A DNA stretch of 64,000 nucleotides from Methylorubrum extorquens (GTDB lineage: Bacteria; Pseudomonadota; Alphaproteobacteria; Rhizobiales; Beijerinckiaceae), in the NCBI RefSeq assembly GCF_024169925.1, contig NZ_JALJXF010000001.1, positions 4,692,501 to 4,756,500 of the forward strand, read 5' to 3'. Each line of letters opens with the position of its first letter. The stretch's first letter is position 1. Of the stretch, positions 16,545-35,450 are shown piece by piece. Both the position numbers and the translations under genes were made by a program. The notes under the pieces were generated by a model, which saw only the letters and a program-made list of their open reading frames with translations, did no database searches and was not told where the DNA came from.

Positions 16545-16676
16545 TCACGGCGTCGGCAGCGTCGGCGTGACCTCGGGCGGGGTCTCGCGCACGGCGCGCA
16601 GCTCGTACCAGAGGGCGTTGAGCACGCCGACGGCGGCGGCCAGTCCGAGGCCGAGGATCCAGGCGAAGTACCACAT
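16545..16676 (-). CDS. cydX: Cytochrome bd accessory subunit CydX
   Basis: A 43-residue membrane protein starting MWYFAWILGLGLA, the hallmark of the CydX/YbgT family. It has one transmembrane helix and a Pro/Thr-rich tail. CydX binds CydAB and stabilises the haems. It lies 59 bp after cydB in the same direction. Slightly longer than the ~37-residue E. coli protein. Confidence 0.92.
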   Translation of the reverse strand: MWYFAWILGLGLAAAVGVLNALWYELRAVRETPPEVTPTLPTP

Positions 16677-16735
16677 CGTCGCGCGTCCTGATGCGAGGCA
16701 GGGGGGAGGCCCCGGCGGCGCCGGGGCCGGGAGCG

Positions 16736-17890: not shown

Positions 17891-17955
17891 GAGGGAAACT
17901 CCTCGGGCGAGGGGCCGGCGCAATGGCGAGGTCGGCCGGCGAAGGGGGGAGAGGG

Positions 17956-19545: not shown

Positions 19546-19596
19546 GGGAGGCTCCTTGTCCGATGCTGCCTCTCGCGCTGCCGCGCTTTTGCATCC

Positions 19597-19610
19597 TTGA
19601 CGCAGATCAA
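19597..19610. promoter_or_regulatory. FNR/FixK-type operator between cydA and cydD
   Basis: TTGAC-GCAG-ATCAA matches the FNR/FixK consensus TTGAT-N4-ATCAA at 9 of 10 defined bases. It lies about 52 bp before the cydA start and 35 bp before the cydD start, so one site could serve both directions. A cysteine-containing Fnr-type regulator with the matching ETVSR recognition helix is encoded ~3.7 kb downstream. Confidence 0.75.
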
Positions 19611-19644
19611 AGCCGCTCGAGCCGCCCCCGCCGCACAAGGCGGC

Positions 19645-21279: not shown

Positions 21280-22919
21280 TGCGCACCCGCTCCGATACGA
21301 CGCCGGGCGGTTCCGGCCGCGCCGAAACGTCCCGAGCTTGGACCCTCGCCTTCGCCCTCGCGGCTTTGGCGCTCGCCGCGAATCTCGCGCTCGCCGGCAC
21401 CGCCGTGAGCTTCCTGGCCGCGGTGGCCCTGGCCGGGGCCGGGCCGGCGGCCTTCGCCTTCAACTTCCACCACCCCGCCGCCCTGGTGCGCCTGTTCGCG
21501 CTGCTGCGCACGGGCGCGCGCTACGGCGAACGCATGGCCGGCCACCGCGTGGCGCTGACCGATCAGGTCCGCCGCCGCGCTGGCCTGTTCGCCGCCCTGG
21601 CGCGGGCCCCGGAGAGCCGCAGCGCCGGCTGGCAGCTCGGGCGGCCGGAGCGGCTCGCCGACTTCATCGACGACGTGGCCGACATCGACTACGCCCGGCT
21701 GCGCATCGGCTTTCCCGTGGCCCTGACCGGCGCGTCGCTCGCCGGGCTCGTATTCGCCACGGCCCTCACGGCGCCGCTCGCGCTCCTTCCCGTCGCGGTG
21801 CTCGCGCTGGCGGGCGGCCTCGTGGCCCGGCACGCGCTGACGCGGCTCGCGGCCATCGAGGCCTGGGCCCGCCGCGCGCGGCGCACCGCTGCCGCCGATC
21901 TCGGAGCGGCGCTGGCGGGTGCGGTACCCCTCGACGTCGAGGGGCGGCGCGGCCCGGCCCTGCGGATCGCCCTCGATCCCCTGCGCGATGCCGAGCGCGA
22001 GGCCGCCTGCGGAAGGCGGGCGCTGGCCCGGTTCGAGGCCGTACTGGCGCTGGCCGGCCCCGCCATCGCCCTGGTCGTGCTGCTCGCCGCCTGGAGCGCG
22101 GGTGCCCGCGGCACCGGACTCTTGCCCGCCGCCTTCCTGGCCTTCGCTTGGCTCGCCCTCGCGGAGCCGATCCTGTCGCTGCCGCGAGCGCTGCTCGGCT
22201 CCGTCCGTGCCCGGCTCGCCCGCCAATCCCTCGCCGTAGAGGAAGGCACCGCAGAGGAAGGCACCGCCGCGGAGCCGGCCCCTCGGCCCGGTCCGGCCCC
22301 CGGCGCCCTGACCCTGCAGGGCCTGCGCCTGCGGGCGCCGGACGGGCGCGATCTCGGCCCGGCACCGGAGCTTGCCGTCGTCCCCGGCACACCGCTGACC
22401 CTCGTCGGCGCCAGCGGCTGCGGCAAGACCACCCTGTTGAAGGCGCTGGCTGGCTGGAGCGAGGAGCGGCCCGGCGAGACGATCCGGCTCGGCGGTGCCG
22501 TCCGCCCGGCGGCTGAGCGGCGGGCGCTGACGCATCTGAGCCTGCATGATGCGGCGATCCTGTCCGACACCGTCCGCGAGAACCTGTTCGCGCCCGGCGT
22601 CTCCGACGCGGCTTTGTGGGCGGCCCTGGAGGCCGTCGAACTCGACACCCGCATTCGCGCGGCCGGCGGCTTCGATGCCTGGATCGGCGAGGGCGGCCTT
22701 TCGCTGGGCGAAGCGCAACGCCTCAACCTCGCCCGCGCCTGCTTAAGCCCGGCCCCCGTCATCCTCCTTGACGAGCCGGCCGAGCATCTCGGCGACGATC
22801 AGGCCGCGCGCATCCTCGGGCGCCTGCTCGCGCACTGGCATGACCGCATCGTCGTGCTGACGAGCCACCGACCGGATCTCAGGCTGCCCGGGCGCCGGGT
22901 CTCGCTCGGGCTGGATTGA
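21279..22919 (+). CDS. cydC: Heterodimeric cysteine/glutathione ABC exporter, CydC subunit
   Basis: A 546-residue partner of CydD, translationally coupled to it. It has an N-terminal membrane domain, a low-complexity Glu/Ala/Pro linker at ~325-345, then the ATPase with Walker A GASGCGKTT and Walker B VILLDEP. The ABC signature reads LSLGEAQ instead of LSGGQ, so the composite ATP site formed by this loop and CydD's Walker A may be weak, as in many asymmetric exporters. In the family order the first gene is CydD and the second CydC; this assignment follows that order. Confidence 0.9.
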   Translation: MRTRSDTTPGGSGRAETSRAWTLAFALAALALAANLALAGTAVSFLAAVALAGAGPAAFAFNFHHPAALVRLFALLRTGARYGERMAGHRVALTDQVRRRAGLFAALARAPESRSAGWQLGRPERLADFIDDVADIDYARLRIGFPVALTGASLAGLVFATALTAPLALLPVAVLALAGGLVARHALTRLAAIEAWARRARRTAAADLGAALAGAVPLDVEGRRGPALRIALDPLRDAEREAACGRRALARFEAVLALAGPAIALVVLLAAWSAGARGTGLLPAAFLAFAWLALAEPILSLPRALLGSVRARLARQSLAVEEGTAEEGTAAEPAPRPGPAPGALTLQGLRLRAPDGRDLGPAPELAVVPGTPLTLVGASGCGKTTLLKALAGWSEERPGETIRLGGAVRPAAERRALTHLSLHDAAILSDTVRENLFAPGVSDAALWAALEAVELDTRIRAAGGFDAWIGEGGLSLGEAQRLNLARACLSPAPVILLDEPAEHLGDDQAARILGRLLAHWHDRIVVLTSHRPDLRLPGRRVSLGLD

Positions 22920-23317
22920 GGCAAGCCCAACCCGAACGCCGGGACTCCCCTTACACTTTGCCAAGTCGGCGAGAGTCGGGCCGCCGGCGAGGCTCTGTGC
23001 CGCCGGTTTGCGCCGTCGAGGCATCCGTGCGCGCCGCCTCCGGTGCGCCCTCTCTCGAAGCTGTCGCGGTCGCGAGAAGCGGCATAAATCCCTTTACGAC
23101 ATCCGTTCCGATCAAGAAGGCTGGAAAGATCAGGATAAAGATGTGGCCGCGAAAGAAGTCACTCGGCGGGAAGACATCGCCCACGCCGCCGTAATGCGCT
23201 TCCTCGGTCGTCCTTCATTATCCGCTCGCTTCGGCCCTGTCCGGTTTCGACTTCACAGGCGACGCGGAGGCAGGCTATTGAATTGCTTGGAGCGGGCTGC
23301 GGGACGGGAGGCTTCCG
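22920..23317. other. Intergenic region before the Fnr-type gene
   Basis: 398 bp without a supportable gene. The middle (~23080-23160) is less GC-rich than the surroundings and probably contains the promoter of the downstream regulator. I see no FNR half-site pair, so no sign of autoregulation through that box. Confidence 0.35.
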
Positions 23318-24070
23318 ATGCAAAGCTCTGGCGAGAGCCCCGGTGTCGAGCCGATCCCAGCCGAGCCGCCTTGCGCGCACGACCGCTCGGAGAGTGGCTG
23401 CGCCGCGTGCAAGGTCCGCCTCATCAGCGTCTGCGCGGCGCTCACGAGCGAAGAACTCGCCGGCTTGGAGGCGCTGAGCCAGCCCGTCCATCTCGACCCG
23501 CGCCAAGCCCTGTTCCAGCAGGAGGGCCGGGCGGGCGCCGTCTACAACGTCACCGAGGGGGCTTTACGCCTGTCGCGGCTTCTGCCGGACGGGCGGCGGC
23601 AGGTCATGGGTTTCGCCATGGTCGGCGATTTCCTCGGCCTCGCGCTGCCCGAGCGCTTCACCGTCACCGCCGAGGCGCTGGCGCCGACGACGCTCTGCCG
23701 GTTCGAGAAGCGTGCCTTCGCCGGCCTCGTCGCCCGGACGCCACACCTGCTGCAACGCCTCTACGAGCGGGCCGGCCATGAGCTGACGCTGGCACAGGAT
23801 CACATGCTGCTGCTGGGCCGCCGCACCGCCGAGGAGAAGGTGGCGAGCTTCCTGCTCGGCTTGCGCACGCGCTACGCCCGCATCGGGCACGATTCCATCA
23901 CTGTCGAGCTGCCGATGGGCCGGCAGGACATCGCCGACCATCTCGGCCTCACCATCGAGACGGTGAGCCGGATGCTGACCCGGCTCGACCGGGAGAAGGC
24001 GCTGCTGATCGTGCCCGGCGGCGTGCGCCTGTTGGACGTTGCCCGGCTCGAACGCATCGCGGCGAGCTGA
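23318..24070 (+). CDS. Crp/Fnr-family oxygen-responsive regulator (FnrL/FnrN-like)
   Basis: A 250-residue regulator with a cyclic-nucleotide-binding-type sensor domain and a winged helix at ~195-225. Four N-terminal cysteines (19, 28, 31, 39) and a central Cys127 provide ligands for an oxygen-labile [4Fe-4S] cluster, as in FnrN/FnrL; FixK-type proteins lack these. The recognition helix contains E214-TV-S217-R218, the residues that read TTGAT half-sites. GGGAG precedes the ATG. Location between cyd genes and the UspA-cytochrome c pair, both with candidate boxes, suggests local and global control of microaerobic metabolism. Confidence 0.85.
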   Translation: MQSSGESPGVEPIPAEPPCAHDRSESGCAACKVRLISVCAALTSEELAGLEALSQPVHLDPRQALFQQEGRAGAVYNVTEGALRLSRLLPDGRRQVMGFAMVGDFLGLALPERFTVTAEALAPTTLCRFEKRAFAGLVARTPHLLQRLYERAGHELTLAQDHMLLLGRRTAEEKVASFLLGLRTRYARIGHDSITVELPMGRQDIADHLGLTIETVSRMLTRLDREKALLIVPGGVRLLDVARLERIAAS

Positions 24071-24145
24071 AACGGTAACCCTTGATCAGAGCGGAAGCCG
24101 AACTCCGCTCTCCCGCAGGGATCGACCGGACTTCGTCCGAGCGCC

Positions 24146-24472
24146 TCACCGTTCGAGGGTCTGAAGGTAGGCGATCAGGGCCTGCGCCTCGTCGGGATCG
24201 AGCCGGAATTCCGGCATCGTCGGATGGCCCGTGGTGATGCCCTCCGCCAACGCCTCGGCCAGATCCGTGACCGGGTAGCGGCGGTGCAACGCGCGGAACG
24301 GCGGCGCGTCCGGCAACGGGCTCGCGCCGACGCGGCCGATCGCGTGGCAGCGGGCGCAGTTCGTGCGCGCGATGGTCTCGCCACGCTTAGCGCGGGCATC
24401 GAGCGCCTGGGTGGCGGCCGGGAGGGCGATCAGCAGGAGGGCCAGGATCGGAAGGGTGGTCGCGATACGCAT
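24146..24472 (-). CDS. Small monohaem c-type cytochrome
   Basis: A 108-residue exported protein with a signal peptide (MRIATTLPILALLLIALPAA), one haem site CARCH and a likely distal Met in PTMPEF. It ends with the usual C-terminal helix (AQALIAYLQTLER). It is a periplasmic electron carrier of cytochrome-c class I size. The ATG overlaps the stop of the universal stress gene (TGATG), so both belong to one operon. The redox partner is unknown; the nearby bd oxidase takes electrons from quinol, so it is not an obvious partner. Confidence 0.85.
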   Translation of the reverse strand: MRIATTLPILALLLIALPAATQALDARAKRGETIARTNCARCHAIGRVGASPLPDAPPFRALHRRYPVTDLAEALAEGITTGHPTMPEFRLDPDEAQALIAYLQTLER

Positions 24473-25284
24473 CAGTGACACATCAGGCAGGGGAGGGGGC
24501 TGCGGTGCAGCATCTCGCGGGTGACGCCGCCGAACAGCCACTCGCGCAGGCGGGTATGGCCGTAGGCACCCATCACGATGAGGTCGGCCCCCTGTTTGAC
24601 GGCGAAGCGCAGGAGTTCGTCGCCGTCGCTCACGACGGTGCGCAGCAGGTGGGTCGTGACGGCAGCGCCGTGGCGGGCAAGATGGCCGGCGACATCTTCC
24701 GCGCCCTCGTTGCGGGCGCCTTCGTCGGTGCTGACGACGAAGACCTGATCCGCCTCGCGGATGAAGGGCAGCGCGGCCGAGACGGCCCGGCGCGCCTCCG
24801 ACCCGTCCTTCCAGGCCACGACGATCCGGGCGCCCCGAAGCTGCTCGGCGCGCGGGGGCACCACGAGGACCGGGCGGGCGGCCTCCATCAGGACGGGGCC
24901 GGGCGACACGCCGAGGGTGGAGAGCGGGATGTCGTCGAGGCCGCAGCGTCCCACCACGAGGAGATCGGCCGCCCGCGCTTGCTCGACGAGGTGGGAGATC
25001 GGACCCGCCAGGGCCTCGCGCCAGTCGCGGCGCAGCGGGGCTTCGGCGGAGCGCTCGAACAGGGCGTGTGCCTGTTCGAGCAGGGCCCGCGCCTTCTCCT
25101 CGAAATGCGGCTCCTCGTCATAGATCTCGCCGATATCGCGCACGTAATCGGGTGTCGGCACCTTGCAGGCGGCCGCCCCGGTGAGCGTCGCCTCGAAGCG
25201 CCGTGCGAGCGTGGCCGCAAGCCGGATGCGCTCGGCGGCGGCCTCGTCGAGGTCGACCGAGACCAGGATGTTCGCGTAAGCCAT
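24472..25284 (-). CDS. Tandem UspA-type universal stress protein
   Basis: A 270-residue cytoplasmic protein with two Usp folds in tandem. The second half ends in GADLIVMGAYGHTRLREWLFGG plus MLHRSPLP, the classic G-2x-G-9x-G ATP-binding region of UspA; the first half has a weaker version. ATG 25284 starts MAYANILVSVDLDE at the usual first strand; upstream in-frame sequence is not conserved in character. Tandem Usp genes beside cytochromes are often under Fnr/FixK control; an imperfect box lies ~83 bp upstream. Confidence 0.85.
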   Translation of the reverse strand: MAYANILVSVDLDEAAAERIRLAATLARRFEATLTGAAACKVPTPDYVRDIGEIYDEEPHFEEKARALLEQAHALFERSAEAPLRRDWREALAGPISHLVEQARAADLLVVGRCGLDDIPLSTLGVSPGPVLMEAARPVLVVPPRAEQLRGARIVVAWKDGSEARRAVSAALPFIREADQVFVVSTDEGARNEGAEDVAGHLARHGAAVTTHLLRTVVSDGDELLRFAVKQGADLIVMGAYGHTRLREWLFGGVTREMLHRSPLPCLMCH

Positions 25285-25451: not shown

Positions 25452-26288
25452 ATGACCGGCCAGCCCCCCGTCGTCGTCGCGGTCGCGATCACCGGCTCGG
25501 TGCCGCGCAAACGCGACAACCCGGCCGTGCCGATCACGGTCTCAGAGCAGATCGAATCGACCCAGGCCGCCTTCGAGGCCGGTGCGGCGCTGGCCCACAT
25601 CCATGTGCGCAACGACGACGAGAGCCCCTCGTCCGATCCGGAGAAGTTCGCCGCCGTGCAGGCGGGCCTGCGCAAGCACTGCCCCGGCATGATCGTCCAG
25701 TTCTCGACCGGCGGGCGCGGCCGCGATCCGGCGAGCCGCGGCCTCTCGCTCCAGCACCGGCCCGACATGGCCTCGCTCTCGACCGGCTCGGTCAACTTCC
25801 CGACCATCGTCTACGAGAACCACACCACTCTGGTGACAGAACTCGCCGGCCAGATGCAGCGCAACGGCGTGCGGCCGGAGATCGAGATCTTCGACCTCTC
25901 GCACCTGCACGGAGCCAAGCGCCTCGTCGAGGCCGGGCTGATGGATGCGCGCCCGCACGTGCAGTTCGTGATGGGCGTGAAGAACGCGCTGCCGGCGCAG
26001 GAGCACCTGCTCGACCTCCTGCTCGGGGAGCTGCGCCGCCTGCTGCCGGGGGCGACCTGGACCGCCGCCGGGATCGGCCGCGAGCAGGCCCGCGTGATGG
26101 ATTGGGCGCTGGCCCGCGGGGCGGATGCGGTCCGCACCGGACTGGAGGACAACATTCGGATCACGCGGGAGCAGCTGGCCGGCAGCAACGCCGAGCTGGT
26201 CGGCCTCGCCGTCGCGGCGGTGACCCGGCACGGCCGCCGTGTCGCGACCCCGGCGCAGGCCCGGACCGCCCTCGGCCTCCCTGCCTGA
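25452..26288 (+). CDS. BKACE family beta-keto acid cleavage enzyme (DUF849)
   Basis: A 278-residue TIM-barrel enzyme of the 3-keto-5-aminohexanoate cleavage (BKACE) family, which uses Zn and acetyl-CoA to convert a beta-keto acid into acetoacetate and a CoA ester. Metal ligands are visible in AHIHVR (His49, His51), and the conserved VRTGLEDN segment provides the late Glu. The family member's substrate cannot be predicted by eye; family members act on carnitine- and lysine-derived keto acids among others. No co-operonic transferase or dehydrogenase is present. Confidence 0.88.
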   Translation: MTGQPPVVVAVAITGSVPRKRDNPAVPITVSEQIESTQAAFEAGAALAHIHVRNDDESPSSDPEKFAAVQAGLRKHCPGMIVQFSTGGRGRDPASRGLSLQHRPDMASLSTGSVNFPTIVYENHTTLVTELAGQMQRNGVRPEIEIFDLSHLHGAKRLVEAGLMDARPHVQFVMGVKNALPAQEHLLDLLLGELRRLLPGATWTAAGIGREQARVMDWALARGADAVRTGLEDNIRITREQLAGSNAELVGLAVAAVTRHGRRVATPAQARTALGLPA

Positions 26289-26300
26289 CGGCGGCTGATC

Positions 26301-27197
26301 CTAACGCCTCGCGAGGCCGGGCGCGCCCGCTGCGGCGTCGAAGGGCAGCGCCCGCTCCAGCAGCCCCGCCCCGAACCGCTCGCGGAAGCCGAGATGCGGC
26401 ATGTGGGCGTAGCCGATATGGCAGCGGCATTGCGCCAGCGGGCAGGGCCGCGGCGTTAGGGCGGCGTCGAAACCCGGGTCGTAGAGGTTGCCGATCCGGG
26501 CCGGAACCACGTGGCAGCGGCGGACCTCGCCGTCGCCATCGACGCTGACCACGCTCTCGCCCGTGGCGCAGGCCCGGCCCCGGCTGCGGATCCCGGTGCG
26601 GTTGATGTCGAACAGCGGATCGAGCGCGCACAAGGTGGCGAGGTCGTCCGGCCCGTAATAGTTCGGCCCCTCGTCCCGGTAGGCGTTCACCCAGAGGTAG
26701 ATCTCGGGCCGAAGCGCCCGGCGCAGGGCGGCGAGCGCCGCGAAATGCTCGCGCTTGCCCACGATGCCGACGCTGTAGCTGATGCCGCGGGCGTCGAGTT
26801 CGGCGCAGCGCCCGAGGAAGCGGTCGAGCGGCGTCTCGCCCGGATGGAAGGTGCACCAGAAGCCGATGCGGTCGGAATCGCAACCGTCGAGCCAGCCCGT
26901 CGGCCAGGACAGGTTGGTCTGCGCGGCGACCCGCGTGACATGGGGCATCCGGCTGAGCCGCGCCATCGCCGTCCGGTAGGCCGGCCGGATCAGCGCCTCG
27001 CCCCAGGGCGTGAACAGGATGCCCAGCGTGCGCCGGGTCTGGCTGTCGGCCCAGTCGACGAAGCGGGCGAGTTGGCCTGCGTCGCGCCGCAGGGTCTCGC
27101 GGCTGTCCCGGCGCTTGGCGAAGGGGCAGTAGGGGCAGGCGTAATTGCAGCTCGCCAGCGGGCCTCGGTAGAGGATGTCGAGATGGGCGCCTGCCAT
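26301..27197 (-). CDS. STM4011-type radical SAM protein
   Basis: A 298-residue radical SAM protein. The cluster motif CNYACPYC lies near residue 17-24, unusually close to the N-terminus. A C-terminal cysteine-rich tail (Cys in RGRACATGE, RRCHVV and PCPLAQCRCHIGY) could bind an extra Fe-S cluster in SPASM style. Content and neighbours match the STM4011 family of a conserved but uncharacterised five-gene set. The start at 27197 is 2 bases after the upstream gene's stop. It is the last gene of a seven-gene operon. Reaction unknown; a SPASM-like tail suggests a peptide or protein substrate. Confidence 0.78.
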   Translation of the reverse strand: MAGAHLDILYRGPLASCNYACPYCPFAKRRDSRETLRRDAGQLARFVDWADSQTRRTLGILFTPWGEALIRPAYRTAMARLSRMPHVTRVAAQTNLSWPTGWLDGCDSDRIGFWCTFHPGETPLDRFLGRCAELDARGISYSVGIVGKREHFAALAALRRALRPEIYLWVNAYRDEGPNYYGPDDLATLCALDPLFDINRTGIRSRGRACATGESVVSVDGDGEVRRCHVVPARIGNLYDPGFDAALTPRPCPLAQCRCHIGYAHMPHLGFRERFGAGLLERALPFDAAAGAPGLARR

Positions 27198-27199
27198 GG

Positions 27200-28564
27200 T
27201 CAGCGCAGCGCGTAGGCGCGCATCCGCTCGCGCACGCCGGCCGTCTGGAGCCAGGGGCCGATCGCGTCGGAGCGTTCGAGGCCCGCCTCGGTCAGCCGGA
27301 GACCCTCCGCGTCGAGGGTGGCGAGGCCTGCCTCTGCGAGGTCGGCCAGTCCCGGCAGGTCGGCGAGGAGCGGCGTGCCGAAGCGCTCCGCGTAGGCGCG
27401 CGGGGACAGGCCGGGGGCCTGGAGCAGGTGCATCAGCACGAAGCGGCGGCGCTGGTCCTCGGCGTCGAGCCACGCGCCGTAATCGGCCCGGCCGTGGCGC
27501 CTCGCGTCGCGGGCGGTGTAGTCGGCGACGATGGCGGCGACGCCCGGCTGCCCCACGGCGTAGGCGGTCGCGTAGTGCAGGGCGGCGGTGTAGGAGCGCG
27601 CCCCGGCGCCGAGCCCGACCATGCCGTCGCGGGCGCAATCGTAGGCCGGGCCCCATGCGGCCTCGGGGGCGCGGCGGAACATCCGCATCGAGACCTGCCG
27701 GTAGCCGGCCGTCCGCAGCCGGTCGCGGGCCGCGCGGTAGATCGCGAGGCGGCGCGCATCCCAGGCGCGGTCGTCCTCGGCGGCTCCGCCCCGCCGGCCG
27801 AGCCCGGTCAGCGGCCGGACGTAGAGGGGATAGAGGAAGAGTTCTTCCGGCTCCCAGGCGAGGGCCGCCTCGACGGATTCGAGGAAGCTCGCGGGTGTCT
27901 GCCCGGCGGCGCCGTAGATCAGGTCGATGTTAAGGACCGGGATGCCGGCGTCACGGATCGTTCTGAGCGCCGCATCGACGCTGCTCCGGCTTTGCGGCCG
28001 GCCCATCGCCCGCGCCTCGTCGTCGCGAAACGACTCGACGCCGATGCTGATCCGCTCGACCCCGTGCGCCCGCAGCACGGCGAGCCGCTCCGGCGTGGTG
28101 GTGCCGGGCGCGGTCTCGACCGAGGCCGGAAGCGCCAGGGGCGTGGCCCCGAAGGTGTCGCGCAGATCCGCCAACAGGCGGTCGAGGTCAGGCGCTTCGA
28201 GGAAGGTCGGGGTGCCGCCGCCGAGTGCCATGCGGGCGACCCGGAACCGGCCGAGACTGTCGGCCACCGTCTCGGCCTGGAGCCGCAGGGCGTCGAGATA
28301 GGGCGCGACGCGGCCCTCGCCGCGGGTCAGGGTGAACAGGTTGCAGAAGCCGCAGCGCATCGCGCAGAACGGCACGTGCACGTAGAGGAACAGCCCGTCC
28401 TTGGCTTCCTCCGCCCAGGCCTCGCGCAGGGGCACCGGGTGCCGCAGCGGCCGGTAGGCGGTCTTGTGCGGGTAGGCGTATTGGTAGCCACCATAGACCG
28501 GCCCCGCGCGCAGGGCTGCCGTGCTCATGCCGGGGCCCATGCCGGTGCCAATGACGGTGTTCAT
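27200..28564 (-). CDS. STM4012-type radical SAM protein, HemN/HemW-like
   Basis: A 454-residue protein with HemN-like architecture: radical SAM motif CAMRCGFC preceded by YVHVPF, then GGGTPTFL, SVETAPGT and ISIGVESF. A C-terminal winged-helix-like HemN_C region follows. HemN-fold relatives include coproporphyrinogen dehydrogenase, the haem chaperone HemW and class C methylases. The fixed association with an ATP-grasp-like protein, a hydrolase and an LRR protein sets this one apart as STM4012 type. The ATG overlaps the stop of the hydrolase gene by 4 bases (ATGA). A later ATG (MSTAALR) is possible. Confidence 0.8.
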   Translation of the reverse strand: MNTVIGTGMGPGMSTAALRAGPVYGGYQYAYPHKTAYRPLRHPVPLREAWAEEAKDGLFLYVHVPFCAMRCGFCNLFTLTRGEGRVAPYLDALRLQAETVADSLGRFRVARMALGGGTPTFLEAPDLDRLLADLRDTFGATPLALPASVETAPGTTTPERLAVLRAHGVERISIGVESFRDDEARAMGRPQSRSSVDAALRTIRDAGIPVLNIDLIYGAAGQTPASFLESVEAALAWEPEELFLYPLYVRPLTGLGRRGGAAEDDRAWDARRLAIYRAARDRLRTAGYRQVSMRMFRRAPEAAWGPAYDCARDGMVGLGAGARSYTAALHYATAYAVGQPGVAAIVADYTARDARRHGRADYGAWLDAEDQRRRFVLMHLLQAPGLSPRAYAERFGTPLLADLPGLADLAEAGLATLDAEGLRLTEAGLERSDAIGPWLQTAGVRERMRAYALR

Positions 28565-29364
28565 GCCGCCTCCTGGATGAACTCGGCGTAGGGCACGTCC
28601 CACACGGTCGGGTGCGCGAGGCGGTGGCCGCGATAGCCGTCCTCGCCGAAGGCGGTGCCGTGGTCGGCGCACAGGATGCAGAGGGCCGGCCCGCGCGCCT
28701 CGAGCGCCGCGAAGAGCGGGGGCAGGGCGCCGTCGGCGTAGGCCAGCGCCGCCGCTTGCGTCTCCGCGCTCTCCCGCGTCGCGCCCGGCAGGTAGGCGCG
28801 GGTCGGGTGATGGGTCGCCGAGACGTTGAGGAATAGGAACAGCCGCCGCTCGCGCTCGAGCGCGGCGATCCGCTCCACGGCGAAGCCGACCTGCGCCGCG
28901 GTCGAACCCTTCGCCTGCACGCCGAAGCCGCCGTGCCAGTGGCTCTCGGCGAACAGGCCCGGCAGGACGCGGCCGAGCGGGGTGCGCTTGTTGAAGAAGC
29001 CGACGCCGCCGATGCACAGCGTGTGATACCCGCGTGCGGCAAGGCCGGAGACGATGTCGGGCGCGTCGAACACGGCGGTGTCCGGCCCGGTGGTGCGGCT
29101 GCCGTCGAAGCGCAGCGCGAAGAGGCGCGGGTGCGGTCCCGGCTCGGCGGGCGTCGGCAGGAAGCCGGCGAAAATCGCCTGATGCGCGGCATAGGTGAAG
29201 CTGCCCGGCGCGTGGCGGCGCTCCCAGGCCTCGCCCGGCAGCAGGCGCGCGAGGTTCGGCGTCCGGCCCTCCGCCAGCGCGGTCGCGGCCACGTCGTAGC
29301 GGAGCGAATCGAGCGTCACGAGCAGGATGTCGTGCGAGCCCACGCGTTCGGCGGCGCGGATCAT
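28561..29364 (-). CDS. STM4013-type hydrolase, alkaline phosphatase/sulfatase fold
   Basis: A 267-residue predicted metallohydrolase. The N-terminal strand ILLVTLDSLRYD places the first metal-binding Asp and a candidate catalytic Ser/Thr region; CADHGTAFGEDG near residue 235 supplies the Asp-His metal pair typical of the sulfatase/phosphopentomutase superfamily. It has no signal peptide, so it acts in the cytoplasm with its neighbours. It overlaps both the upstream ATP-grasp-like gene and the downstream radical SAM gene by 4 bases. Substrate unknown. Confidence 0.75.
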   Translation of the reverse strand: MIRAAERVGSHDILLVTLDSLRYDVAATALAEGRTPNLARLLPGEAWERRHAPGSFTYAAHQAIFAGFLPTPAEPGPHPRLFALRFDGSRTTGPDTAVFDAPDIVSGLAARGYHTLCIGGVGFFNKRTPLGRVLPGLFAESHWHGGFGVQAKGSTAAQVGFAVERIAALERERRLFLFLNVSATHHPTRAYLPGATRESAETQAAALAYADGALPPLFAALEARGPALCILCADHGTAFGEDGYRGHRLAHPTVWDVPYAEFIQEAA

Positions 29365-30509
29365 GCGGCGAGTCCCACGGGACGGCGCGCGGCGATCCAG
29401 CCGGGCAGGCGGGCCACCTGCCATTCGTAGGGGTCGAGCCCCTCGTGCCGGACACGGCGGATCAGGTCGCCGAAGGCGTTGGCCTCGAAGAAGACGTGGC
29501 GGCGCAGGCCCACGGTCAGTGCCACGTCGAAGGCGACGTGGAAGGTCTGCGGGAACAGCCTCGCGAAGCGGCGGCAATCTGCCCGCATCGCCTCCCAGAC
29601 GGCGGGCGGCGCCAGGGCGCGAAGCGCGTCCGCCTCGCCCCGGCGCCCGCCGAGATCGAGGTTGGTGATCGGGCCGCGGGCCTTGCGCAGCACGCTATGG
29701 GCGGGCTCGCCGTCGACCACGAGCACGCGCAGGTCGCAAGGCCCGCCGTCGAGAGCGGCCTTCGGCACCCACTGCTCCACATGTGCGTCCTGCGCCAGGA
29801 TCGTGTCGATCAGCGCCACGGCCTCAGCTCCGCGGTAGCGCCGTAGCCGGTGGGAATGGTGCAGCACGCCGGGCCCGGCGCCCGGCACGTGCTCGGCCGC
29901 GGAGTCCGCCACAATCCCGTCGCGGGCGACCGTGAGCGCGGCGATGCCGGCGGCGCCCGAGCCGAAGCGCGGCTTGACGAAGACGCGGGTCAGACCGGCC
30001 GCGCGCATGGCTTCCACAAGCGCGTCGAACGAGCCGGCCGGCGGCAGCGCCCGCGGCACCGGCAGGCCGTGCGCGGCCATGGCGGCGTGGCAGGCCCGCT
30101 TGTCGTAGAACAGGGCGACCGTCTCGGCCTCGTGGGTCAGGGCGACGCCCGGCGGCACGACCCGGCGGGCGAGCCGCAGCGCCGCCGTGAGCCCGCGCTG
30201 CAGGCCGTGGTCGGGCCGCAGCCGCGTCGCCTCGTCGTCGGCCTCGTCCTCACCGCCGAGGCGCAACAGGGCCCGGCGGATGCCTGGATCGCCGCCGGGC
30301 GAGTCGATGCGCAGCAGGCCGCGCCCCTCCGGGAACAGCGCGCTCAGCCGGTCCGGCGCTTCAATGAAGCGGGCGTAGTCGAGTACGGGCGCAGGCGGGT
30401 GCCCGGCCCGGACCAGCGCGGCGCTGAAGCCCTCCGTGCGCTCGTCGCCCGCGACCCCGAGGATGACGCAGGGGGCAATCCCAGTGAGCGAGTCACCGGC
30501 GCCCGTCAT
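29361..30509 (-). CDS. STM4014-type protein, ATP-grasp-like
   Basis: A 382-residue cytoplasmic protein. Segments resemble the ATP-grasp fold: KRACHAAMAAHGLPVPRA (start of the ATP subdomain), VFVKPRFGSGAAGI (Lys plus Gly-rich loop), LRVLVVDGEP, and a late FEANAFGDL resembling the metal-binding Glu/Asn region. ATP-grasp enzymes ligate a carboxylate to an amine or thiol, as in peptide maturation and lysine modification. Assignment to the fold is by eye. Four-base overlaps on both sides indicate tight coupling. Confidence 0.68.
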   Translation of the reverse strand: MTGAGDSLTGIAPCVILGVAGDERTEGFSAALVRAGHPPAPVLDYARFIEAPDRLSALFPEGRGLLRIDSPGGDPGIRRALLRLGGEDEADDEATRLRPDHGLQRGLTAALRLARRVVPPGVALTHEAETVALFYDKRACHAAMAAHGLPVPRALPPAGSFDALVEAMRAAGLTRVFVKPRFGSGAAGIAALTVARDGIVADSAAEHVPGAGPGVLHHSHRLRRYRGAEAVALIDTILAQDAHVEQWVPKAALDGGPCDLRVLVVDGEPAHSVLRKARGPITNLDLGGRRGEADALRALAPPAVWEAMRADCRRFARLFPQTFHVAFDVALTVGLRRHVFFEANAFGDLIRRVRHEGLDPYEWQVARLPGWIAARRPVGLAA

Positions 30510-31432
30510 TCCGAGACGGCGATGTTGCGGTAGATCTCGCCGGCATACTCGTCCGGCTCCTGCTGCTCGGAGAGGTCGACCGCCGGCCCGAGAGCCGCCA
30601 GCCGCGTCATCGTCGCCTCGGTGAGGAAGTGGTGGTGCAGGTCGAGCCGCGACAGCTTCGCCACCGCCGGCGAGGCGATGAGCGCCTCCGCGCCCGCATC
30701 CGTCAGGTTGCCGAGGGAGAGGTCGAGGGTCGAGACGCGTTCCAGCACGGGAGCGGCGGCGACCGCCGCGGCGAGGTCGTCGGCATAGGCGCAGTCGCGG
30801 AGCGCCAGGGTGTTGAGCTTCGGGAACAGCCGGCCGGCGAAGAGATCCGCAAAATCTGCCGGCGTGCTGTCGCCGCCATACTCGTCGGTGCCGAGCCAGA
30901 GTTCGAGATGGCGCAGCTCCGGCGCCCCGGCGGCCAGCGCCTCCCCCACCACCCGGCGCGGCAGGCCGCCCGATTCGACGATGAGCGCGGTCAGGCGCGG
31001 CGCCTCGAACCGCCCGAGCGCGAGGCCGGTGGCGCCGCGCACCTGCATGTGCTCCAGCTGCGGGAAGGCCGGCCAGAGCGCCGAGAGGTCGCTCTGGTTG
31101 ATCCAGGAAATCTCGTTCTCCTCCGAGACGATGTCGCCGAGGAAGAGCGCGCGCAGGTTGGGAAACCGCTCGGCATAGGAGACCAGCGCCTCGACGACCG
31201 CCTGGGACGTGCCCTCGGAATCGTCGCCCTGCCAGTAGCCGATGACGAGGGCGTCGGTCGCCTCGGCGCCGGGCAGCGCCGCGTAGCTCCCGAGCATGGC
31301 CGGCACGTTGTCCTCGGAATCGTACGCGACGCGGAAGCGCGGCACCGCGCGCTCGAAGTCCCAGGCCTCCATCCCGTTCTGGAAATCCTCGACCGGCTTG
31401 CCGAAGAAGGTCGTCAGGTTCTCGTAGGGCAT
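30506..31432 (-). CDS. STM4015-type leucine-rich repeat protein
   Basis: A 308-residue protein made mainly of irregular leucine-rich repeats: units such as RTLDLSLGNLTDAGAEAL-type and LSRLDLHHHFLTEATMTRL recur from residue ~80 to 290. No signal peptide and no membrane segment. LRR folds bind proteins, so it may recruit the substrate or hold the enzymes together (inference). It overlaps the STM4014-type gene by 4 bases and lies 38 bp after the DUF6745-like gene. Confidence 0.72.
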   Translation of the reverse strand: MPYENLTTFFGKPVEDFQNGMEAWDFERAVPRFRVAYDSEDNVPAMLGSYAALPGAEATDALVIGYWQGDDSEGTSQAVVEALVSYAERFPNLRALFLGDIVSEENEISWINQSDLSALWPAFPQLEHMQVRGATGLALGRFEAPRLTALIVESGGLPRRVVGEALAAGAPELRHLELWLGTDEYGGDSTPADFADLFAGRLFPKLNTLALRDCAYADDLAAAVAAAPVLERVSTLDLSLGNLTDAGAEALIASPAVAKLSRLDLHHHFLTEATMTRLAALGPAVDLSEQQEPDEYAGEIYRNIAVSE

Positions 31433-31470
31433 CGGTTCCGGCTTCTCGTTCGGGCGGTGGCGGGACCGGT

Positions 31471-32382
31471 TCAGGTCTCGATCAGCGGGGCGTAGTCGGC
31501 CGGGTCGTCGAAGCCGGCGGTCCAGGCCACGGCTTGGTGGCAGGTCTTGGTGGTCGGCGGAACGCGCAGGAAGTAGCGCCGCCCGGTCGAAGGACAGCCG
31601 ACCGAAACGCAGACGAGGGGCTCGTCGCCCGCGAGATCGACCCGCAGCAGCCGGCGCTCGCCGCCGGGGTCGCGGTCCCGGTCGAGTTCTTCCGCTTCGG
31701 CCGCCTCCATGAAGGTCTCGAAGCCGAAGCGCTCCAGCATCACCCGCCGCCGCTCGGCGTTGCGCTCCTCCAGGATCTCGGCGATCCCGAGCTCATGCGG
31801 CCGGAAGGCGATGCGCGCATCCACCGGCACCCCGCGCCAGCGCAGGCCGATGCCGGGCAGGTGCGGCGGCGGTTCGGTGAGGCCGGAGCCGGCCACGTCG
31901 ATCCACGAGGTGACGCGAAAACTCTCCGGCACGTGGTCGATCCGGCCGCAGCCGGCGATGTCGAGCCCGGCGACGGAGCCCCGCGTCGGTAGGGCGCCGA
32001 TCAGGGCGCAGTCGCGGATGTTGAGCCGCCCGCCACGTAAATGGAGATCGTCGGGCAGGGCCTTCAGCGCCGAGCAGCCTTCGAGGTCGAGGAAGGCCGG
32101 CGACAGGCCGGGTGGCAGGGTCTCCAGGGCGAGGCAATCGCGCAGATCGACGATGCCGGCGCGCAGGTCCGCCGGCAGGGTCGTCAGCCGGTGGCAGGCG
32201 CGGGCGGAGAGGCGATAGGTGATCGCGTTGCCATCCTCGATCCGCGCGATGGCGGAGCCGTCGAGCACGAGTTCGCGGCAGCGGATGCCGTGGCCGAGCG
32301 TGTCCAGCCGGCTCGCGGGCGCGAGGATCCGGTGACAGACGAGACCGTCCGGCAATGCGCGGGCGGCCTCGTTGCGCGGCAT
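31471..32382 (-). CDS. LRR-like DUF6745-type protein
   Basis: About 303 residues from ATG 32382; the frame is open to 32601, so a longer product overlapping the upstream gene is possible and no ribosome site settles it. The first half has short leucine/cysteine repeats (for example LDLEGCSALKALPDDL and LNIRDCALIGALP). The second half, with MLERFGFETFM, GERRLLRVDL, DEPLVCVSVGCPSTGRRYFL and a TCHQAVAWTAGF segment, resembles the DUF6745 domain as I recall it. Function unknown. Its place upstream of the STM4015-4011 genes suggests a common operon. Confidence 0.6.
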   Translation of the reverse strand: MPRNEAARALPDGLVCHRILAPASRLDTLGHGIRCRELVLDGSAIARIEDGNAITYRLSARACHRLTTLPADLRAGIVDLRDCLALETLPPGLSPAFLDLEGCSALKALPDDLHLRGGRLNIRDCALIGALPTRGSVAGLDIAGCGRIDHVPESFRVTSWIDVAGSGLTEPPPHLPGIGLRWRGVPVDARIAFRPHELGIAEILEERNAERRRVMLERFGFETFMEAAEAEELDRDRDPGGERRLLRVDLAGDEPLVCVSVGCPSTGRRYFLRVPPTTKTCHQAVAWTAGFDDPADYAPLIET

Positions 32383-32503
32383 GTCGAGCCGGTCGAGAAC
32401 CTGCCCGGCCTCTTGCCCGGCCTCGTCGGCAGAGAGCGTGTCCTGAGGGCGCAGGATGCGCCGGGCGGGTGCGGGGGGGCATCGGCGATCGATTCCCCGA
32501 CAC

Positions 32504-32800
32504 TCAGTCCTGCACGGTGACAATGCGCTGCGGCGTGTATTCGCGCTGCCGCCACACCCGGTAGACGCCGCGGTCGAGGGTGATCGTGCCGTGCTCGTCA
32601 TGGACGACGCGGGCTTGGTCGGCGCGCACGTCGAGGTAGAAACAGCCGTCGCCGGCGAACAGAGCGGCGGGATCGACGACGCGGTGGCTATGGCCGGTCA
32701 ACTCGCCATGCGCGAGCACGGTATGCGGCAGCGGCCGGCTGGCGGCCTCCTGCGGAACGGCGGAAATCGCGCGAATGAAGATATCGCCCTGACGCCACAT
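32504..32800 (-). CDS. Small His-rich hypothetical protein, first gene of the radical SAM operon
   Basis: A 98-residue cytoplasmic protein from ATG 32800, preceded by GGAG at 6 bases. Histidines cluster in AHGELTGHSHRV and VHDEHGTITL, and the C-terminus reads GVYRVWRQREY; the spacing looks like a small beta-barrel (cupin-like) metal site, but this is inference. The sequence is the kind often found next to LRR/DUF6745 proteins. It is followed by the DUF6745-like gene. An open frame continues upstream to 32926 but lacks conserved character. Confidence 0.6.
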   Translation of the reverse strand: MWRQGDIFIRAISAVPQEAASRPLPHTVLAHGELTGHSHRVVDPAALFAGDGCFYLDVRADQARVVHDEHGTITLDRGVYRVWRQREYTPQRIVTVQD

Positions 32801-33206
32801 GCCCGTCTCCGCCCATGTTTCAAGAGCAAGAGCCGACTTAAGAGCCGCTTGCCGCTCTTTGTCCGGCTTATGATCGTGGTGCACGCCCGGCGAAGGCCAT
32901 GCCTCGACAGAGTTGCGCCCTGACAATACTCTGTTGGCACGAGGCTAACCCGGCGATCGACTGACGGTCAACCGGTGGCGGGCTGTTACGGTATCTCTGC
33001 CAAGCCCGATCCGCCCGCCGGCCGATGTGAGATCCCGGTGGGCCGAGGCTCCCCCGCCGACAGGACAACATTCGGTTGACCTACGGGCTCAGCAGGGTAG
33101 AAATCCTACCAATCCGGGTCTCTCTTGTGTTGCGCACAACTTTAATAGCCTGGAACTGACGACATCTGCGGAGTCGTCATCGCCGTCGTCGGCCGGCATT
33201 TTTCGC
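32801..33206. promoter_or_regulatory. Divergent intergenic region, radical SAM operon / M48 protease
   Basis: 406 bp with no convincing gene. It must contain the promoter of the seven-gene minus-strand operon and that of the plus-strand protease. Base composition is lower in GC than the flanks near 33080-33200. No recognised operator. Confidence 0.3.
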
Positions 33207-35450
33207 ATGTCCGGCTTATCCGCATGTGGGCCTTGCGGTCGCCCGCGCTTCAGGAGGCTGACCATCCCCGAAGCAACGACTTCGCCCGCGCGTTCTCGTC
33301 CGGGTGCCTTGGCGCGCCTCGTCGCGGCCACCGTGCTGCTGCCGCTCGTTCTCCTGCTGCTCGGCCTGTGGGAGGTTCGGCGCGGCGCCGACGATCACGC
33401 CGCGTTCGAGGCCGAATCGCAGCGGCTCACCGGCCTCGTGACGCAGATGGAAGCGCGGGCGCCGCGGGACGGTCGCTTCGATCCCCGCCTTCAGTTCCGC
33501 TACGAGGGCCGGCTCTATGGCGGGCCGCTCGCGATCGATAAGGCGCGCGAAGCCCGCGACGAGGCTGGGCTCCTCGCCACGCTCATGGATTGGCGGCGCG
33601 TGCTGCCGCCGGTCGTCGTCGCGGGCGGCGCGCTGGCCGCCGCGCTCTCCGTGCTCGTGCTGCTCGCGGGCGCCGTCCTGGGGCGCCTCGGCCGCGCTTC
33701 GCGCGATGCCCTGGTACGCGGCTTCTCGCTGATGCGCCGGCTGCTCCCCGCGACGCTCTCGCTCCAGATCCTGGCGGCGACGGCGAGTTTCGTCGCTGCC
33801 GTGACCTTCGAGGCGGCGGCCCTGCTTCAGGGCGGCTTCGATGGCGGTGCGCTGAAGCTCCTGGCGATCGCCGTCGTCGCGGTCGGCGCCGTCGTCTTCG
33901 TGGCCGGCACGACGGTGCTCGGCCTGCGCCGGGCGCTCGGCGCCTTCGAGCCCGATCCGCTGCCGATCGTCGGCCGGACGGTGACGCCCGAGCAGGCGCC
34001 GGGCCTGTGGCGCCTCGTCGAGGGGCTCGCCGCGCGGCTCGGAGCCCTGAAGCCCGAGGCGGTGGTGGTCGGGCTCACCGAAGGCTTCTTCGTCAGCGCC
34101 GGGCCGGCGGTGCTGGAACCCGGCGGGGTGCGGGTCACCGGCCGGATTCTCTACCTGCCGCTGCCCTATCTCGCCCTGATGCGGGGCGACGAGGTGGCGG
34201 CGATCATCGGCCACGAACTCGCCCACTATGCCGGCGGCGACACCATCTACAGCCAGCGCTTCCTGCCGATCTATGCCGGCGTCGAGCGCTCCCTCGACGC
34301 GGTCGCCGAGGGCCACCAGGGCTCGCTCGGGCTGCTCGGGCCGTCGCTGCGCCTCGGCGTCTTCGTGATGGAGCGCTTCCACCTCGCCGTGCGCCACTGG
34401 AGCCGGACGCGCGAGTTCGCGGCCGACGCGGCCGGCGCGGGCGTGACCTCGATCGATGCCTCGGCCCGCGCCTTGCTCCGCGCCGGCGCGGTGGGGCCGC
34501 GCGTCGCCGAAACCCTTCAGGCCGCGGCCGACGCGCCGGATGCGGCGCCGCCCGACCTCGTCGCCGCCGCCCTCGACCGTGCGATCCGGAACGGGCTCGA
34601 CGACCCGGCGGCGCATTGGCAGGAGGAGCAGGCCCACCCGACCGACACCCACCCGCCGACCCGCGAGCGCGTCGCCGCCCTCGGGCGCAGCATCGACGCG
34701 GATCTCCTGGCCGCGGCCGGCGCCGTGCCGCCGCCCCACGCGCTCGGGCAGCTCGCCGCCTATTTCACCGACCCGACCAGGCTCAGCCAGGCGGCGACCG
34801 ACGACTTCCTCGGCGCGCTGCGGGCGCAGGACGCGGCGTACCGCGCCCATCTCGAGGCGACGGCGGCGGAGGTCGGCACCGAGGAGCGGGTGCTGCGCGC
34901 GAACTACCGTCCGCGCGGGATCGCGCTGGCGGTGGGCGGCGGCCTGTTTGCCGTCATCGCGCTCGCGATCGCCGTGTTCGGCGTGCCGGGGATTTCGCCG
35001 AAGGACAACGGCGTCGTCCTCGCAATCGCGCTCGGCTTCGCCGTGCTCCTGGGCGGGGCCGGCGTCCTCATCCTGCGCCGGGGCGAGCCCGTGATGCTGA
35101 CCCTCAGCCCCGCGGGGCTGAAGGCGCCGGGGCTCGACCGGACGATCCCCTGGGACTCCATCGCCGACCTCGACATGACGCTGAACCAGACCGGCATCCT
35201 CACGCGCCTGCTGCTGCCGCCCGAGGCGGACTGGCCGCAGCGCTTGCCCGGCCGGAACGGAATCAAGCTCGACGCGAAGCGCCGGATCATCACGTTCCCG
35301 ATCGGCCTGCCGCGCGGAATGAAGCCGCCGGACTTCGCCGAGCTGATCGGCCGCTACCAGATGGCCGCGCAGGCCCGGCGCCTCCTCGCCGAGACCGAGG
35401 CCCTCGCGCCGCGATCCCCCTCCGAATCCCAACGCGCCGAGGCTTCATGA
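33207..35450 (+). CDS. Multi-pass membrane M48-family metalloprotease
   Basis: About 747 residues. Zn motif HELAH in IIGHELAHYAGGD, with the third ligand Glu in TREFAADAAG. Two hydrophobic helices near the start, a helical pair after ~130 and two more at ~560-610 anchor it in the membrane, so it may resemble HtpX/Ste24-type quality-control proteases. The start is uncertain: ATG 33207 has no clear ribosome site, whereas AGGAGG at 33252-33257 sits 6 bases before an in-frame ATC (33264) and abuts an in-frame CTG (33258). The stop overlaps the next gene's ATG. Confidence 0.8.
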   Translation: MSGLSACGPCGRPRFRRLTIPEATTSPARSRPGALARLVAATVLLPLVLLLLGLWEVRRGADDHAAFEAESQRLTGLVTQMEARAPRDGRFDPRLQFRYEGRLYGGPLAIDKAREARDEAGLLATLMDWRRVLPPVVVAGGALAAALSVLVLLAGAVLGRLGRASRDALVRGFSLMRRLLPATLSLQILAATASFVAAVTFEAAALLQGGFDGGALKLLAIAVVAVGAVVFVAGTTVLGLRRALGAFEPDPLPIVGRTVTPEQAPGLWRLVEGLAARLGALKPEAVVVGLTEGFFVSAGPAVLEPGGVRVTGRILYLPLPYLALMRGDEVAAIIGHELAHYAGGDTIYSQRFLPIYAGVERSLDAVAEGHQGSLGLLGPSLRLGVFVMERFHLAVRHWSRTREFAADAAGAGVTSIDASARALLRAGAVGPRVAETLQAAADAPDAAPPDLVAAALDRAIRNGLDDPAAHWQEEQAHPTDTHPPTRERVAALGRSIDADLLAAAGAVPPPHALGQLAAYFTDPTRLSQAATDDFLGALRAQDAAYRAHLEATAAEVGTEERVLRANYRPRGIALAVGGGLFAVIALAIAVFGVPGISPKDNGVVLAIALGFAVLLGGAGVLILRRGEPVMLTLSPAGLKAPGLDRTIPWDSIADLDMTLNQTGILTRLLLPPEADWPQRLPGRNGIKLDAKRRIITFPIGLPRGMKPPDFAELIGRYQMAAQARRLLAETEALAPRSPSESQRAEAS

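Follow-up and report, generated by a model that had tools for sequence, protein, structure and literature searches.

A modular STM4011–STM4015 locus in Methylorubrum extorquens that may modify a leucine-rich repeat protein nearly always ending in glutamate

RimK acts at the C-terminus of ribosomal protein S6. In amino-group carrier systems, such as LysW/LysX of the lysine alpha-aminoadipate (AAA) pathway and that of Vzb22, activation of the gamma-carboxylate of a C-terminal glutamate is followed by its ligation to an amino compound, which is then modified (PMC9303977, Discussion). With the pearlins (PEARL, carrier-peptide biosynthesis), treated in the same paper, the shared principle would be that a ribosomal scaffold is modified at its C-terminus. 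Twitch-domain radical S-adenosylmethionine (SAM) enzymes are defined in PMC6231123 by CX3CX2C plus an auxiliary cysteine set, CX9-15GX4C and a later CXC; SkfB, which matures ribosomally synthesized and post-translationally modified peptides (RiPPs), shows such a pattern. The locus considered here lies at positions 26301-32800 of a 64,000-nucleotide stretch of Methylorubrum extorquens DNA (the window; assembly GCF_024169925.1, contig NZ_JALJXF010000001.1, positions 4,692,501 to 4,756,500) and consists of seven genes, all on the minus strand (Table 1). Five of them encode families STM4011 to STM4015, and the set may modify a leucine-rich repeat (LRR) protein, STM4015, that nearly always ends in glutamate.

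The named families were already known. What is new is the modular structure of the locus, the fixed C-terminal glutamate, and the phage-type gene pair found with the core five. The open-licence literature yielded only passing mentions of STM4013 or STM4015 in table rows, with no function described for the set, no mention of STM4011, STM4012, STM4014 or DUF6745, no paper joining radical SAM, leucine-rich repeat and ATP-grasp/operon, and none joining leucine-rich repeat, RiPP, radical SAM and precursor peptide. Amino-group carrier proteins and radical SAM enzymes do appear together in print, PMC9303977 being an example. An initial annotation, made from the letters alone, had proposed an unbroken run of seven minus-strand genes and had named the five families. 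The layout was confirmed, with 4-base overlaps at STM4015/STM4014, STM4014/STM4013 and STM4013/STM4012 and a 2-base gap at STM4012/STM4011, and in a hidden Markov model search all five clustered proteins scored above their NCBIfam cut-offs. The annotation was right as well in calling the hydrolase fold class (PF00884), the ATP-grasp protein (relatives of LysX/RimK) and the LRR protein (NCBIfam STM4015), and the gene that it called DUF6745-like exceeds the Pfam gathering score. That protein also has a XopL-like LRR match, at 25.7 bits against a cut-off of 500, which was read as generic LRR similarity. The seventh protein, of 98 residues, has no match in Pfam or NCBIfam and matches PHROG 27831 (phrog_27831), a family of unknown function (E 6.6e-18). 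The start of the DUF6745 gene is uncertain: TTG at 32523 aligns with the annotated protein of Methylobacterium currus, and ATG at 32601 is the alternative. The gene is separated from STM4015 by 38 bases. A plasmid of M. currus carries the same seven genes in identical order, the small one annotated as a hypothetical protein. No promoter or terminator was found in a scan of 26000-33200.

To place the locus among its relatives, profiles built from the set were used to annotate 88 loci (some cut by contig ends). Besides the window they comprise 7 of 13 plasmid records and 80 genome loci, the best among at least 565 confirmed STM4013 relatives, obtained by scanning species genomes with an STM4013 alignment. 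To judge from record titles, the best 80 include Myxococcota, Chloroflexota, Planctomycetota, Cyanobacteria, Streptomyces, Actinoplanes and Janthinobacterium. The set is seldom found in the window's class, where STM4011 exceeds its cut-off in 2 of 240 genomes and DUF6745 in only one of the 240, the window's own. All five core families stand in the window in the order seen on the Salmonella plasmid record and in many of the 88 loci. What the window adds is the pair formed by the 98-residue and DUF6745 proteins, missing in the Salmonella, Paenibacillus and Bacteroides loci examined.

The unusual point about STM4015 is that its fixed residue is the last one. Glutamate ends 104 of the 106 STM4015 open reading frames (ORFs) at the loci, 120 of the best 120 among 1901 STM4015 relatives, and all 51 aligned sequences. 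It also ends all 16 copies read away from STM4013 loci (16 of 19 matches of at least 150 bits, one cut by the locus edge; one in G250 and two in G253 were left out, and the 19 exclude L241, which is the L085 copy itself). The C-termini of STM4014, STM4013 and STM4011 are not conserved. The usual end of STM4015, R-[YF]-x-[AS]-[VL]-x-E, is preceded by a stretch rich in aspartate and glutamate (0.35 versus 0.16 in the whole protein), and 40 to 51 residues separate the last well conserved LRR leucine from the end. Arginine occupies position -7 in 100 of the 106 ORFs and tyrosine or phenylalanine position -6 in 97. The window's protein has asparagine at -6, some relatives have serine there, and the Salmonella and Bacteroides copies have no arginine at -7; in the tail only the terminal glutamate is near-universal. 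One member of the family has already been solved, PDB 2ra8 of Bacteroides fragilis, named uncharacterized; it has an extra N-terminal stretch relative to the window's protein, and a related B. finegoldii copy looks WGR-like in that region. Four STM4015 relatives (P0190, P0200, P0201, P0208) also have WGR (PF05406) or Lon N-terminal (PF02190) domains.

STM4015 is found directly upstream of STM4014 in 73 of the 74 loci that have both. Among solved structures, the 22 relatives of STM4014 are led by LysX 1uc8 (1.6e-5), 3vpd, and RimK 5zct/4iwx. D328 and N344 are present in 45 of 45 aligned rows and E342 in 44, residues assigned to Mg/ATP. By this detectable similarity and by these D, E and N residues, STM4014 is an ATP-grasp protein of the wider RimK/LysX-like kind. 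STM4015 is strongly acidic (median isoelectric point 4.46, n=101; window copy 4.34) and STM4014 mostly basic (median 8.73, n=74; window copy 8.80), so the charges of the two are complementary. A locus may hold from none to four copies of STM4015 but none or one of STM4014, and up to four STM4015 share a single STM4014, which suggests several scaffolds served by one ligase. In the genome of the window, STM4015 and DUF6745 each occur once.

STM4011 has a C-terminal twitch-type domain of the form C210-X12-G223-X4-C228-X23-C252-X4-C257-X-C259. All eight of its cysteines are present in 43 of 43 rows, and the auxiliary spacing 12-4-23-4-1 is kept in 42. Its pattern, CX12GX4C...CX4CXC, is consistent with that of SkfB as given in PMC6231123, and SkfB (6efn, E 0.0022) is the sole solved relative found, matching across the twitch domain. 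By these cysteines STM4011 is a twitch-domain radical SAM enzyme, predicted to bind the corresponding clusters. It does not fit the SPASM type, whose seven cysteines (CX9-15GX4C-gap-CX2CX5CX3C-gap-C) are not matched: five auxiliary cysteines are conserved, the second part being CX4CXC. Although STM4011 shares with SkfB and other SPASM/twitch RiPP maturases the CX9-15GX4C and CX4CXC auxiliary-cluster pattern, it differs from the SkfB type in that it has no N-terminal RiPP recognition element and that its partner is a 300-residue LRR protein rather than a short peptide. There is no space for an N-terminal peptide-recognition domain, because the radical SAM motif begins at residue 17. In STM4012, CX3CX2C and GGGTP are invariant (33 of 33 rows). 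In STM4013, D19, T57, H185, D234, H235, H247 and H251 are present in 44 of 44 rows, with Thr57 at the position of the nucleophile. Its relatives include sulfatases, nucleotide pyrophosphatases/phosphodiesterases (NPP) and EptA; the best single match is arylsulfatase 6hhm, and NPP 2gsn aligns at the threonine stretch. Since threonine, not cysteine or serine, stands at this position in every row, STM4013 is not a formylglycine sulfatase, and the same threonine rules out the idea that STM4011 matures STM4013 by turning a cysteine or serine to formylglycine. With threonine and Asp/His metal ligands, STM4013 probably belongs to the Thr-nucleophile branch (NPP, EptA) of the alkaline-phosphatase superfamily.

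The families, residues, modularity, co-occurrence and C-terminal fixation are established; every reaction that follows is inferred from them. A LysX/RimK-related ATP-grasp protein is nearly always paired with an acidic protein ending in glutamate, and STM4015 is therefore proposed to be charged by STM4014. According to this proposal, acidic STM4015 would be the scaffold (substrate or carrier) of a five-gene modification pathway. STM4014 would activate the carboxylate of its C-terminal glutamate and join an amino compound to it, and STM4011 (twitch-type) and STM4012 (HemN-like) would then alter the attached group or the adjoining tail. STM4013, together with a haloacid dehalogenase (HAD) phosphatase in some lineages, might perhaps supply or trim a phosphorylated intermediate. 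This combined reading, with STM4015 as scaffold or substrate, its last residue charged by STM4014 and the product of that step modified by the radical SAM enzymes, is put forward tentatively, at rather less than an even chance. The initial annotation had seen in the parts list a pathway of peptide or protein modification. The parts do fit (twitch radical SAM, distant LysX/RimK-like ligase, fixed C-terminal glutamate), but the reactions stand as proposals. The locus shares with amino-group carrier systems an acidic protein with C-terminal glutamate beside an ATP-grasp protein, LysX being its closest solved relative. It departs from them in its LRR scaffold, its two radical SAM enzymes and its phosphatase-like hydrolase. 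Because the LRR fold and the R[YF]x[AS][VL]xE end differ, STM4015 is not counted among the amino-group carrier proteins; it would only work like one. As to the pearlins (PMC9303977), no PEARL enzyme is found among the five families, and the putative ligase is instead of the ATP-grasp type.

The seven genes do not travel as a block. Adjacency, counted as same strand, in order and within 500 bases, holds for the 98-residue and DUF6745 genes in 40 of 40 loci, for STM4015/STM4014 in 73 of 74, for STM4014/STM4013 in 55 of 75, for STM4013/STM4012 in 77 of 83, and for STM4012/STM4011 in 78 of 80. The weak joint of the core is between [STM4015-STM4014] and [STM4013-STM4012-STM4011], and the locus consists of three movable units, these two and the 98-residue/DUF6745 pair. 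In several myxobacterial loci the [STM4015-STM4014] unit is inverted or lies outside the stretch. Thirteen genomes have no STM4014 at the hydrolase locus, and ten of these carry it above the cut-off elsewhere: in eight it is at most 200 bases downstream of an STM4015 match (a weak and partial one in G394), in one about 1 kb from STM4015, and in one about 5 kb away in reversed order. The other three, with no STM4014 anywhere, are metagenome-assembled genomes, two with neither gene and one with STM4015 only. Among the 25 clusters of neighbouring genes listed, the most recurrent family is a HAD hydrolase. A HAD hydrolase gene stands just upstream of STM4013 in 11 of the 88 loci and adjoins STM4011 on the Salmonella record, and in a Bacteroides plasmid STM4011 carries a fused HAD domain. 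The plasmid of Bacteroides finegoldii (L012:8572-8953) has kept STM4015, STM4014 and the STM4011-HAD fusion, with only short remnants of STM4013 and STM4012.

The 98-residue and DUF6745 genes occur together in 40 of the 88 loci and are both absent from the other 48; neither is ever found alone. Where at least 6 kb is available on either side of STM4013, the pair is present in 32 of 64 loci and not in the other 32, although in one of these, L060 of Streptomyces acidicola, the same contig carries the pair at a distance of about 19 kb. Among 121 genomes of that genus, with thresholds of more than 350 bits for DUF6745 and less than 1e-20 for the small protein, the strong DUF6745 type is found in 44 and the small protein in the same 44, all of them within the 55 genomes that have STM4011 (Fisher p 5.7e-23, without correction for kinship). 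As the initial annotation supposed, both extra genes are real partners of the core. Counting against the co-occurrence are five genomes (G291, G309, G316, G337, G374) in which only a weaker DUF6745 type exceeds the cut-off and STM4011 does not; the weaker type therefore does not accompany the core. On plasmids, the small protein was found in 9 of 72,556 records, 7 of them among the 13 with STM4011. In the other two, of Deinococcus ficus and Skermanella rosea, it adjoins DUF6745, and there is no STM4011 in the stretch. A single seven-gene operon is what the window has but is not the rule. The pair may lie upstream of the core, downstream of it or between its genes, and of the 40 loci, 11 (the window included) have it on the same strand as STM4013 and 29 on the opposite one. 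Since its position varies and a shared strand is the minority case, the link between pair and core is not an inherited fixed order. The genomes of 30 of the 48 pair-less loci were searched for DUF6745; 10 have it elsewhere and 20 have none. Given these 20 genomes and the 48 loci, the core evidently gets by without the pair.

The pair itself is a tight unit, with the same strand and the same order in 40 of 40 loci. In the 98-residue protein, G-H-x-H, H-x-E-H and QREYxP are near-invariant (H39, H67 and H70 in 24 of 24 rows, H37 and E69 in 23), and the histidines make a metal site possible. Aspartate is its last residue in 40 of 40 locus copies, 119 of 120 relatives, and 81 of 81 in the viral-contig set. 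Its AlphaFold model (pLDDT, the predicted local distance difference test, 86.7) has beta strands and one short helix, and the structural comparison made gave no clear match to a cupin or other known fold. DUF6745 ends in Y-x-P-x-x-[EQ]-[TA] in 40 of 40 linked relatives. Ten phage records encode the small protein, with DUF6745 alongside in both of the two examined. In IMG/VR, 460 contigs (which may include prophages) encode a relative, and 56 of the best 80 also carry DUF6745. This pair of phrog_27831 and DUF6745 proteins is the same two-gene unit as that of the window, mostly in the same order and with the same last residues, but no STM4011-4015 gene accompanies it in the viral stretches read. 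At the expected DUF6745 site, a cluster of 19 loci resembles (by eye, from one representative) the N-terminal part of DUF6745 cut at a contig end. At least one viral DUF6745 N-terminal part (L185:4393-4713) has GASVRDSV-type repeats. In several cyanobacterial genomes (L096-L113), one to seven DUF6745 matches lie off the STM4013 locus; [EQ]T is the end of many of them, and some adjoin the small protein.

A FastTree tree of the small protein and DUF6745 (106 loci, 225 columns; limited by best-hit sampling and the short alignment) places 24 actinobacterial core-linked pairs in one clade (support 1.0) beside 45 phage pairs (0.857), and mixes the other 16 core-linked pairs with three bacterial pairs not directly linked and one phage pair (0.994). 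Core-linked pairs in two places of the tree are read as at least two separate associations, hence the pair was probably recruited to the core at least twice. The pair is an accessory that not every core has and that evolves separately, and phages carry units of the same kind. The initial annotation had offered the small histidine-rich protein as a substrate or metal carrier of the pathway. That role is not supported: the protein is one half of a pair found apart from the core in many viral contigs, and it is missing from 48 of the 88 loci. One guess is that the pair has a binding role, either on the LRR scaffold or on its product. A link of the pair to RNA repair by way of a neighbouring VWA protein (TROVE) was not supported, as Pfam shows VWA domains only.

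Several observations weigh against charging of STM4015 by STM4014. Two of the 106 ORFs, in L049 and L091, do not end in glutamate. Nine further LRR columns are invariant in the STM4015 alignment, and since other LRR positions are equally fixed, fixation of the terminal glutamate alone is no proof of a reactive site. The AlphaFold model of STM4015 (mean pLDDT 95.9) has values of 94-97 at residues 281-300 and 88 for the last eight, and its structural alignment to 2ra8 extends to residue 308, the last. A tail that is ordered in the model and aligned to its end would therefore be no free swinging arm when the protein is alone, and may be structural; a free flexible tail is not supported. The match of STM4014 to LysX is limited to two short stretches, and scores of 20.6 bits against the RimK model (TIGR00768, cut-off 143.4) and 19.8 against that of LysX (TIGR02144, cut-off 275.6) make it a distant relative, not a member. 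The match of STM4011 to SkfB covers one domain only. No releasing peptidase was seen in the gene set. LysW, moreover, is a small globular domain with an EDWGE-type end, from which STM4015 differs in fold and end motif.

A tail predicted to be ordered and aligned to 2ra8 throughout makes a structural or docking role a strong rival. The terminal glutamate might cap the LRR fold, or might dock STM4015, an unmodified scaffold or regulator, to enzymes acting on a soluble small molecule, perhaps a nucleotide. The presence of NPP and EptA among the relatives of STM4013, the threonine at its nucleophile position, and the HAD genes upstream of STM4013 or fused to STM4011 all suit such an activity. This role is a serious possibility, if on balance an unlikely one, and it leaves unexplained why STM4015 is almost always accompanied by an ATP-grasp protein and why one STM4014 occurs with up to four STM4015 copies sharing the last residue. 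Or perhaps STM4015 is a large RiPP-like precursor, whose tail is oxidised or cross-linked by the radical SAM enzymes at arginine -7, the aromatic residue at -6 and glutamate -1, with STM4014 secondary. The SkfB-like twitch domain and the frequency of those tail residues speak for it, and, since STM4011 has no room for a recognition domain, the LRR part, as leader, could be the handle. But the window's protein has asparagine at -6 and relatives serine, the Salmonella and Bacteroides copies lack the arginine, and no peptidase or exporter is a constant part of the set, so we regard a RiPP-like precursor as rather improbable. A PQQ-like Tyr-Glu cross-link in the tail is likewise weakened by the asparagine. 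Least probable, and quite improbable by our estimate, is a conflict with phages in which the core would serve in defence or stress, with the pair as its target, trigger or counter-factor. The patchy distribution, the plasmids, the many viral contigs with the pair, the two groups of linked pairs (one beside phage branches) and the strand opposite the core in 29 of 40 loci would all be in keeping with it. However, in a search of PADLOC-DB 2.0.0 confined to the seven proteins, six have no match and STM4012 has one weak match (2.2e-5). At the sensitivity used, STM4013 relatives appear in just three viral contigs (L227, L228, L229), none with another core gene in the fetched stretch.

The preferred reading, in which STM4014 charges STM4015, could be carried further. 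It is conceivable, though doubtful, that STM4015 represents a class of LRR carriers or precursors across many bacterial phyla, with several scattered scaffolds per enzyme set in some genomes and with the phage-type pair recruited at least twice. A LysX-like ligase would then build a group on the C-terminal glutamate of these proteins, to be remodelled by two radical SAM enzymes.

Around the locus, a low-oxygen respiration island (16545-24541) lies 2-10 kb past the 3' end of the operon, near the radical SAM genes. On the plus strand, convergent with STM4011, 25452-26288 encodes a BKACE-type enzyme above the NCBIfam cut-off for 3-oxoadipate:acetyl-CoA acetyltransferase. Directly upstream of the operon, 33027-35450 encodes a divergent protein of 807 residues with a weak HtpX-like stretch.

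Table 1. Features of the window, with positions, strand and the basis of each assignment (aa, amino acids; pI, isoelectric point)
Feature	Position	Strand	Basis and remarks
STM4011 family radical SAM protein	26301..27197	-	298 aa; NF038073 376 bits, cut-off 200
STM4012 family radical SAM protein, HemN-like	27200..28564	-	454 aa; NF006067 546 bits, cut-off 380; PF04055 and PF06969 (HemN_C)
STM4013/SEN3800 family hydrolase, alkaline-phosphatase superfamily	28561..29364	-	NF038075 400 bits, cut-off 250; PF00884 29 bits, cut-off 25
STM4014 family protein, ATP-grasp type	29361..30509	-	NF038074 292 bits, cut-off 175; pI 8.8
STM4015 family LRR protein	30506..31432	-	308 aa; NF038076 320 bits, cut-off 275; pI 4.3; ends ...YRNIAVSE
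C-terminal heptapeptide RNIAVSE of STM4015, proposed attachment or recognition tail	30509..30529	-	family pattern at stop codon
LRR protein with C-terminal DUF6745 domain	31471..32523 (TTG) or ..32601 (ATG)	-	PF20530 88 bits, cut-off 27; ends ...YAPLIET
98-aa beta-rich protein	32504..32800	-	near-invariant motifs, terminal Asp; constant DUF6745 partner
cydB-type cytochrome bd subunit	16736-17980		
cydA-type cytochrome bd subunit	within 17956-21204		
CydC-like exporter	21279-22919		below cut-off
Fnr/FixK-like regulator	23318-24070		below cut-off
Cytochrome-c-like protein	24146-24541		

STM4011 to STM4015 are curated names for which no described function was found, yet the set is widespread, as the number of STM4013 relatives indicates. 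The two extra genes of the initial annotation turn out to be a gene pair common in viral contigs. If it is true that an LRR protein is charged at its last residue, then STM4015 would be a new class of scaffold for ribosomally based biosynthesis, one served by two radical SAM enzymes.

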